A program made the translations under genes and the position numbers. A DNA stretch of 32,352 bases from Chloroflexota bacterium (GTDB lineage Bacteria; Chloroflexota; UBA6077; CF-72): the NCBI GenBank assembly GCA_005883405.1, contig VBGG01000195.1, positions 1-32,352 of the forward strand. Direction: 5' to 3'. The notes under the pieces were generated by a model. The model was not told where the DNA came from. It ran no database searches and saw only the letters and a list, made by a program, of their open reading frames with translations. Below are positions 4,256 through 20,131 of the stretch, one piece after another (positions within the stretch are counted from its first letter, which is position 1; each line of letters begins with the position of its first letter).

Positions 4256-4407
4256 CAGTCGCGAGTCTTGAGTCATGAGTCGCGGCGTTGCCGATACTTG
4301 GGCGGTATTGTCGGTAAATCGAGCGGTAAGTCACCATCGGAAAGGACGAGTTGCTGATGACTCATGACTCACGACTCATGACTCTCGACTCATGACTACT
4401 CAAGACT
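4256..4407. repeat. Inverted heptanucleotide-repeat element, locus 1 (pyrH-frr)
   Basis: Left arm 4256-4283 (cagtcgc gagtctt gagtcat gagtcgc), right arm 4359-4407 (gactcat gactcac gactcat gactctc gactcat gactact caagact); arms are complementary. Confidence 0.85.
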
Positions 4408-5720: not shown

Positions 5721-5857
5721 GTTCCGCGTTCCGGGTTCCGGGTTCCGCGTTGGGGCATTCGCCTCGACGCCAGCTAGACTCGCATGACTGCTTTGCCCGA
5801 TACGGCCACGGCCGCTCGCTCCGAACGCGGAACGCGGAACGCGGAACCCGGAACGGG
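5721..5857. repeat. Inverted heptanucleotide-repeat element, locus 2 (uppS-cdsA)
   Basis: Left arm 5721-5755 (gttccgc gttccgg gttccgg gttccgc gttgggg), right arm 5823-5857 (gaacgcg x3, gaacccg, gaacggg); ~17-bp perfect complementarity between arms. Confidence 0.88.
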
Positions 5858-6665
5858 ACGTCTGGCTCTCAGAGTGGTGAGCGGCTTCGTCGCCGTTCCC
5901 TTCTTGCTCGGCGTGGCCTATCTCGGGGACCCCGTGTACGGCGCCTTCATCTGTCTCGCAACGGGCTATGCCGCGTTTGAAATCCGCGGCATGCTGCGCG
6001 CTGGAGGCTATGCGCCGCTGGACTGGGCGCTCATCGGGCTGGCGGTGGTGTTACCGCTCGACAGATGGCTGGCCGGCTACGGGTGGCCCGCGCCCGACGG
6101 CCTGGCGGTGGTCACCGCCGTGGTGGTCGGAGGCCTGGTGGCGCTGCTCATTCGACCGACCTCAGAACGCGCCCTGGTGGACTGGGCTCTATCCGTTGGC
6201 CTCGCGCTCTATCTCGGTGGCCTGATGCAGTTCTACATGCCGCTTCGCGCGCAGCCGACGAGTCTGCCCGGGTTCTGGGTCATCGCCCTGCTGGTCCTGA
6301 GCTGGGTCTGCGACAGCTGCGCGTACTTCGTCGGCGGCGCCATCGGTCGAACTCGACTCGCGCCAAGCATCAGCCCCAACAAGTCGGTCGAGGGCGCGGT
6401 CGCGGGTCTCGTCGGCGCGGCCATCGTGGCGCCCTTGCTGGGCCTCGGCGTCGGTCTGGCCCCGGCGCTCATGGCCGGCTACGGCCTGGTCATCGGGCTG
6501 GCCACCGTCGTCGGCGACCTGATCGAATCGCTGATCAAACGCCATACCGGCGTCAAGGACTCAGGCGTACTCATTCCAGGTCACGGCGGCTTGCTCGACC
6601 GCATGGACAGCTTGCTGTTGTGCGCCCCGCTCGCCGTGCTGTACCTGCGCGTATTCGGCGGATGA
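5784..6665 (+). CDS. cdsA: Phosphatidate cytidylyltransferase
   Basis: Multi-TM; CDSCAYFVGGAIGRTRLAPSISPNKSVEGAVAG, GDLIESLIKRHTGVKDSGVLIPGHGGLLDRMDSLL; true start uncertain (in-frame GTGs at 5874/5877). Confidence 0.93.
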   Translation: MTALPDTATAARSERGTRNAEPGTGRLALRVVSGFVAVPFLLGVAYLGDPVYGAFICLATGYAAFEIRGMLRAGGYAPLDWALIGLAVVLPLDRWLAGYGWPAPDGLAVVTAVVVGGLVALLIRPTSERALVDWALSVGLALYLGGLMQFYMPLRAQPTSLPGFWVIALLVLSWVCDSCAYFVGGAIGRTRLAPSISPNKSVEGAVAGLVGAAIVAPLLGLGVGLAPALMAGYGLVIGLATVVGDLIESLIKRHTGVKDSGVLIPGHGGLLDRMDSLLLCAPLAVLYLRVFGG

Positions 6666-18244: not shown

Positions 18245-18519
18245 GTGCAGTGGGACTCCTCACGGGGCGACACCCCAAGACCTACTAGTATACGAAGGGT
18301 CCTGAGTATGAACCCGATCCCCGCGGACTACTCCAGGCGCCCTCCGTCCGTTGCCGCCGCCGTACGCCACCGCCGCGGCATCCCCCGCTGCGCCTCTGGA
18401 GTGCGTGCGGCCGCTGGCATGGCACGCTGGGTCCCCTCCGGGGATTTTCCGCTTGTCGGCGCCGGGGCACGTCACGACGTCGAGCGATGGCTCGGCTCAA
18501 TCGCGCGTCTCGCTCCGCC

Positions 18520-19186
18520 ATGATCCCCATCAAGGACTATCCAGGCCCACGCCGCACGTTCCCGTGGGTGATGCTCACCATCCTGGTAGTGAACATCCTG
18601 GTCTTCATCTTCGAGCTCGGTGTTGGCGACACGAACTCACTGGATCAGCTTTTCATGTCGGCCGGGGTGGTCCCGGTCGAGTTCACCCGCGGCATCATCG
18701 TCGGCCCACCGCCGCCGTTCAAGATGCCGTGGATCACGCTCTTCACGAGCATGTTTTTGCACGGCGGCCTGCTGCACATCGCGTCGAACATGCTGTACCT
18801 GTTCATCTTCGGCGATAACGTCGGTATGCGGCCTGGCCGCGGGCGCAACCCACATCGTGGTCAATGCGGGCTCCTCGACGCCCAGCCTCGGCGCCTCCGG
18901 CGCTATCGCCGGTGTGCTGGCCGCGTACCTGCGGCTGTATCCCCACGCTGAGGTTCGCACGCTGCTGTTCATCGGCCCGATAGTCCTGGTGCCACGCATC
19001 GCCGCCGCATTCTTGATCGTCTTCTGGTTCTTCACTCAGTTCGTCTCGGGCATCATGACGCTGGGCGTCAACACCGATACGTCTGGTGGCGTGGCCGTCT
19101 GGGCGCACATCGGCGGCTTCATCGCCGGCCTGATCCTCGTCCAGATCATGGCGCCGCGTCCCAAGGCCCCCGCCATCGCCTACTGA
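18520..19186 (+). pseudogene. Rhomboid family intramembrane serine protease, split over two frames with missing segment
   Basis: Frame 1: MIPIKDYPGPRRTFPWVML...HGGLLHIASNMLYLFIFGDNV; frame 2: GLAAGATHIVVNAGSSTPSLGASGAIAGVLAAYLR...WAHIGGFIAG; junction near 18830. Confidence 0.88.
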
Positions 19187-19191
19187 GACCA

Positions 19192-19350
19192 GTTACGCGT
19201 TGCGCGTTACGCGTTGCGCGTTGGGGCTTCGCCCAGCTAGCGACGAGCTTGCTGACAGGGAGGCGATTTTTTGCGCCGGCTCGTTGTCGGCTGACCCGCG
19301 TTCTCCGCCATCACTCAACGCGCAACGCGTAACGCGGAACGCGGAACCTC
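19192..19350. repeat. Inverted heptanucleotide-repeat element, locus 3 (rhomboid-yebC)
   Basis: Left arm 19192-19226 (gttacgc gttgcgc gttacgc gttgcgc gttgggg), right arm 19316-19350 (caacgcg caacgcg taacgcg gaacgcg gaacctc); 21-bp perfect inverted match 19203-19223 / 19316-19336. Confidence 0.9.
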
Positions 19351-19361
19351 GCACGGAATCA

Positions 19362-20131
19362 ATGCTAGACTTGGACACCTCGGTCATAGCAAGTGGGCCC
19401 AGATCAAGCGCGCCAAAGGCGCGAATGACGTCAAACGCGGCCAATTGTTCACCAAGTTCGGCCGCGAAATCTCGGTCGCGGCCCGCGAGGGCGGCGCCGA
19501 TCCGGATGGAAACCCCCGCCTGCGCATGGCCATCGACCGCGCCCGCGAAGCGAACATGCCGATGGACACCATCCAGCGCGCGATTCAGCGTGGCGTCGGC
19601 GGTGGCGAAGGTGCTGCACTGGAGGAGGTCGTCTACGAGGCCTACGGCGCGGGCGGCGCCGCACTGCTGATCGAGGCCACCACGGACAACCGCAACCGCA
19701 CCGTCGCCGAAGTCCGCGCCACGCTCACCCGCGGCGGCGGCTCGCTGGGCGAATCTGGCTCGGTGGCGTGGAACTTCGAGTCCCGTGGCATCATCGTGGC
19801 CCAGCCGCGCGACAAAGCCGACCCCGAAGAACTGGCGCTCAAAGCGATCGACGCTGGCGCGGACGACTTCAGCGTCGATGGCCGCGACGTCGAGGTCTTG
19901 ACCGACCCCAGCCGCGTTGACGAGGTCCGCCGCGCGCTCGAGGCCGACGGCGCCAAAATCACCAACACCGACGTTGCCATGGTGCCCAAGACGCAGATCG
20001 AGCTTCCTGCAGATCAAACCACCGCCGTCATGCGTCTTGTCGAACGTCTGGAAGACCTCGACGACGTGACACGCGTATACACCAACGTGCACATCTCGGA
20101 CGAGGTGCTCGCCCAGGCCACCGCGGGCTAG
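19362..20131 (+). CDS. yebC: YebC/PmpR family transcriptional or translational regulator; apparent -1 frameshift near 19381
   Basis: GHSKWAQIKRAKGANDVKRGQLFTKFGREISVAAREGGADPDGNPRLRMAIDRAREANMPMDTIQRAI; GHSKW segment lies upstream of the first canonical in-frame start (TTG 19445). Confidence 0.9.

Follow-up and report, generated by a model that had tools for sequence, protein, structure and literature searches.

Two gene junctions in the window, by which we mean the whole 32,352-nt contig of a Chloroflexota bacterium analysed here, carry facing arrays of tandem heptads with a common string beside the left array. This raises the question of whether the string marks a family of mobile elements or whether the arrays themselves are what defines them. 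A sequence-only reading of the window had suggested that GTTGGGGC(A)TTCGCC...CAGCTAG is the conserved core of one element family with a recognition site, perhaps non-autonomous and mobile. We find that the two elements (elements 2 and 3 in Table 1) belong to a population of hairpins, built from facing heptad or octad arrays, that extends across the genome, and that the core does not extend to the rest of that population.

Table 1. Arms and loops of the three paired elements in the window.
Feature	Position	Strand	Description
Element 1 left arm	4263-4281	+	GAGTCAT word; 8 nt after pyrH stop
Element 1 loop	4282-4356		Native pyrH-frr leader (TATTGTCG ... GTCACCATCGGAAAGGA)
Element 1 right arm	4357-4391	-	ATGACTC heptads; between frr SD-like sequence and frr start at 4392
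Element 2 left arm	5721-5751	+	GTTCCGC/GTTCCGG heptads; begins 1-2 nt after uppS stop (5719)
Element 2 loop	5752-5823		72 nt; most of reported core and CAGCTAG (5771-5777)
Element 2 right arm	5824-5854	-	Inverted heptads (AACGCGG)
Element 3 left arm	19192-19222	+	Alternating GTTACGC/GTTGCGC heptads
Element 3 loop	19223-19316		94 nt; most of reported core and CAGCTAG (19234-19240)
Element 3 right arm	19317-19347	-	Inverted heptads; inner two units match left arm exactly

All three window elements show strong predicted RNA folding (z-scores of -4.1 to -6.8 against shuffles), and an Rfam scan of the window returned two tRNAs only, with nothing at the elements. The arms of element 1 bracket native sequence, since the same-genus genomes also carry the pyrH-frr leader. 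The loop of element 2 additionally holds a -10-like TAGACT (by eye) and, at 5784, the ATG with which the cdsA frame opens. If cdsA is started at this ATG, the right arm is read in frame and adds SERGTRNAEPGTG to the N-terminus; our codon-usage caller placed the start later, at 5874, which would keep the arm out of the protein. GTTCCGC-type arrays are stop-free in both directions.

Element 3 begins 5 nt past the stop of an upstream membrane-protein ORF (ending at 19186), and its loop contains an SD-like AGGGAGGCGA (19257-19266) that resembles the yebC leader of the same-genus genomes. In those genomes yebC is preceded by a -10-like TGTTAGACT and then, about 75 nt on, by AAGGAGGCGA...GTG. In the window, the -10-like motif directly adjoins the coding sequence, the SD-like motif lies between the arms of element 3, and in the region 19360-19400 yebC has no in-frame ATG, GTG or TTG start before GHSKW; either a local deletion or rearrangement or an assembly join accounts for this 5' region. 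The membrane-protein gene itself (18487-19186; rhomboid-like by eye) is split over two frames, with ORFs at 18487-18951 and 18620-19186, which suggests a frameshift or a sequencing error near 18.85 kb.

The strings on which the proposed core was based are present, GTTGGGGCATTCGCC at 5749-5763 and GTTGGGGCTTCGCC at 19220-19233, each with CAGCTAG downstream and, as claimed, directly 3' of the left heptad arm. The heptads of the two loci were also said to differ, which is right for the left arms, although both right arms contain GTTCCGC-type units. A core 13-14-mer never arose in shuffles of the window. Genome-wide, however, GTTGGGGC(N)TTCGCC has just two copies in 6.17 Mb (682 contigs), both in the window elements, so that there is no enrichment beside heptad arrays beyond these loci, and a search of 40 other genomes of the phylum gave five matches, none of them beside a heptad array. 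Absence from all other elements rules the string out as a family marker.

Comparison of 48 element loops gave a similar picture. By free local alignment the window pair scored 20, ranking 109th of 2256 comparisons, and when its two loops were shuffled 20000 times, 2302 trials (11.5%) did as well. With loops anchored at the arm end the window pair scored 18 and ranked 7th, and a best pair of at least 18 was reached in 5 of 60 shuffled loop sets. The likeness of the two loops is therefore unremarkable by free alignment and borderline when anchored on the arm. Since loops differ from element to element, a conserved core or recognition site is not supported. A MITE-like element that uses GTTGGGGC...CAGCTAG as its recognition site would account for the occurrence of one string in two elements in a matching position beside the arm, yet with two copies in the genome, a loop likeness that free alignment places within chance and matches in relatives that lack arrays, this explanation is barely credible. 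One other loop pair (C209:2244 and C239:27677) has a common 16-nt loop end beyond all shuffles in the anchored comparison; sequence may thus now and then be copied from one element to another.

The claim that did stand is that the elements are of a single kind, with inverted arms that vary, and occur in many copies at gene junctions. From the fetched stretches, many of them on contigs picked because they bear pairs, 49 paired elements were catalogued, 40 with a period of 7 and nine with a period of 8, with aligned stem lengths of 16-45 (median 27) and loops of 7-124 nt. Pattern searches of the whole genome gave 363 overlapping matches to heptad arrays (up to one mismatch) against 34 for the backward control. 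Density figures come only from the window and a sample of 20 contigs taken by number (C300-C319), 187 kb together, which held five pairs, three of them in the window; shuffled sequence held none. The assembly is fragmented (89.75% complete, 7.9% contamination), and gene calls were made with our own codon-usage caller, checked on window genes, so individual gene starts are approximate.

Several unrelated words and two unit lengths coexist in this genome, and the same word is found at dozens of loci. Apparent single arrays were mostly short-loop pairs that the pairing step had overlooked. The arms are repetitive and the loops unalignable across elements; save for the 16-nt case and one duplicated element, loops are not copied between elements. 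Arms resemble their own partners more than shuffled partners (mean score 19.2 versus 17.6, reached by 2 of 500 shuffles), although the effect is small. The duplicated element is a 90-nt octad element that occurs twice, about 1.2 kb apart (L359:11287-11376 and L359:12481-12570), through either duplication or an assembly artefact. A single intergenic region at L046 (contig C164, 9498-9682) holds a nested element, in which a heptad array is followed by an octad array and then by another heptad-rich palindrome. Three further arrays, L054 (C210:8304), L222 (C502:1195) and L056 (C216:5817), lie inside predicted long reading frames and are possibly in-frame insertions.

The two arms of a pair have a fixed polarity. 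A short-loop pattern search found 84 matches to GTT-in/AAC-out pairs and none to the reversed arrangement, and neighbouring arrays were inverted in 47 cases and direct in none; the pairs are thus always inverted and convergent, as they are in Xanthomonas. The same word stands on the left in every catalogued GTT-type (39) and octad (9) pair, and likewise in 10 of 10 GAGTGCT/GAGTCCT pairs of G007, a genome from another family of the order. Among 301 Chloroflexota genomes, GGATTNN heptads form convergent pairs in seven and reversed pairs in none. Hairpin stability does not explain this rule, because a reversed pair would fold equally well. A fixed polarity would follow naturally from copying of the pair as a whole, or from a process that reads the word's strand.

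Placement relative to genes is equally regular. Of 37 elements, 27 start no more than about 20 nt from a stop codon, most of them within 10 nt. Among the 23 elements that have over 40 nt of spare room between co-oriented genes, 21 lie nearer the stop (p = 7e-5), and 15 lie within 10 nt of it, against 1.9 expected under uniform placement. As in Xanthomonas, most pairs sit between co-oriented genes (34 of the 42 placed in this genome), and G007 has the same gene-end placement with other words. On contig C239 elements occupy the rplW-rplB, rplB-rpsS, rpsQ-rplN and rplN-rplX junctions (rplW and rpsS named by eye), whereas the matching contigs of the same-genus genomes carry none. Stable stems directly behind genes could be intrinsic transcription terminators, but at least five T in the next 10 nt were found at only 2 of 98 stem sides, so the elements lack the U-tract of canonical intrinsic terminators. 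They also lie inside essential operons (rplW-rplB, rpsQ-rplN-rplX), and we regard such a function as very improbable.

We compared the orthologous junctions of 22 elements in two same-genus genomes, and the pair was present in none of 40 comparisons. For the 33 comparisons in which the downstream gene served as anchor, the extra length minus the element length had a median of -12 nt, with single cases scattering widely. In the same-genus genomes the stop and start codons at rplN-rplX and rpsQ-rplN either overlap or stand just a few nucleotides apart, and the dnaN-recF junction is among those with an element here and none there. At C169 the second arm is in frame within the downstream gene. Inspection by eye for target-site repeats found a 9-nt repeat, CGTCTGATG, at C169 and no consistent duplication across elements; at rpsQ/rplN and rplN/rplX, 3-4 nt of the stop/start overlap occur twice (also by eye), a repeat that retention of both codons may itself require. 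Pairs occur in this genome and in G007, with different words, and none was found in 360 kb of the same-genus genomes or in shorter samples, most of 40 kb or less, from twelve other genomes of the order. Insertion is lineage-specific, and the expectation of a mobile or dispersing element agrees with the empty same-genus junctions.

These empty junctions bear on the proposal of a selected regulatory RNA, in which intercistronic stems would serve mRNA processing, 3'-end protection or the tuning of termination and re-initiation. Gene-end placement in two families, stems with a median of 27, strong predicted folding and the location inside ribosomal-protein operons are all consistent with such a role. 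However, the elements are not required at junctions where both same-genus genomes lack them, and folding leaves the polarity unexplained, so we consider selection for an RNA function unlikely as the explanation of the population.

A somewhat more plausible, though still doubtful, alternative is slippage with hairpin-templated growth in the absence of transposition. A seed heptad would expand by 7-nt slippage, template switching across the fork would copy an inverted partner nearby, and selection would remove copies that are not behind stops. The likeness of partner arms, the bracketing of native sequence at pyrH-frr and the variety of unrelated words and unit lengths in one genome all fit. In addition, heptads reportedly outnumber all other long simple repeats in most genomes, for which polymerase slippage was proposed (Mrazek 2007, as cited in PMC4679880). 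Against this, independent growth from random seeds would not put the same word at dozens of loci, and template switching should yield both polarities. Furthermore, whole pairs of 70-190 nt fill junctions at which the same-genus genes overlap or nearly abut.

The closest known parallel is the GGGAATC heptads of Xanthomonas. They pair in inverted, convergent orientation (70 and 75 cases, or 70-75 pairs per genome) where neighbouring genes are co-oriented, a short way past the stop codon and on the sense strand, and were treated in terms of G-quadruplexes (Rehm et al. 2015, PMC4692102). The architecture, for which the sequence-only reading knew no described family, was already published, and these pairs are nearer than the cyanobacterial STRR repeats that it had offered as the best analogy. 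The convergent, stop-proximal layout is the same and the words are different. Whereas Xanthomonas has one G-rich word, mostly common to two close species, here there are several words plus an octad, and every orthologous junction tested in the same-genus genomes lacks them. The words here also depart from the G-rich GGGANTN type, which is able to form G-quadruplexes: GTTGCGC/GTTACGC, GAGTCAT and CGTTCGCG arms have no G-tracts, although GTTCCGG units do give GGG. The occurrence of words without G-tracts argues against G-quadruplex potential as the common cause.

STRR and TAACTGA-type arrays are also tandem 7-nt units in intergenic regions with a patchy phylogeny (PMC4679880), and the Calothrix heptanucleotides, as cited in PMC4692102, can be grouped with them. 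TAACTGA arrays are mostly single, direct and just upstream of start codons, with a single inverted case in the studied Beggiatoaceae genome (MacGregor 2015, PMC4679880), a paper that also cites a general excess of heptads.

REPINs, in which the inverted doublet has been read as the replicative unit (Bertels & Rainey 2011, PMC3116915), are the analogue in functional terms. Our elements resemble them in being extragenic, hairpin-forming inverted doublets with a less conserved, variable spacer and many copies. They differ in that the arms are variable heptad arrays of several words, with no fixed 16-mer REP end. That the elements are REPINs proper, moved by a RAYT (Y1) transposase, is suggested by this likeness and is very unlikely nonetheless: three genomes that carry pairs (G203, G294 and G231) have no match to Y1_Tnp (PF01797), and the sole Y1_Tnp of the present genome has no heptad array nearby. 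A link to Y1 transposases had appeared as a correlation within the order, which broke down in other heptad-bearing genomes, and it is largely refuted.

We favour, at a probability of roughly 0.4, the reading that these are hairpin units akin to REPINs, which disperse in the form of convergent pairs and are retained at the ends of genes. By analogy with REPINs, the convergent pair would be the unit that spreads, and the spreading machinery would recognise which strand of the hairpin carries the word and ignore the loop. Slippage and hairpin-templated repair would then lengthen and homogenise both arms. Most surviving copies would be those just past a stop codon, where an insertion leaves coding sequence and promoters intact. 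Once in polycistronic mRNA, the stems between cistrons, about 27 bp each, could serve in processing or 3' protection instead of intrinsic termination. The uncopied loops count against dispersal as a unit, because a copied unit should carry its loop, as does the native pyrH-frr loop, a sign that arms may be placed on either side of DNA already there. Dispersal as a unit is further weakened because no transposase tracks with the elements, no consistent target-site duplication was found and the partner-matching effect is small.

For annotation, the elements carry a warning, namely that a right arm can be mistaken for the N-terminus of the gene that follows, as happens with the cdsA frame in this window. 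Their absence at the same junctions of same-genus genomes makes the origin of the pairs testable by strain comparison. More broadly, the reported over-representation of heptads in bacteria has no accepted cause. The same layout in a second phylum, with words free of G-tracts, points to architecture and strand, rather than G-quadruplex potential, as the common property. Tentatively, a hitherto undescribed process that is indifferent to the word, sensitive to strand and independent of a Y1 transposase may make or spread convergent heptad hairpins at gene ends in several phyla (Chloroflexota and that of Xanthomonas), and may do so independently in each lineage with different words.
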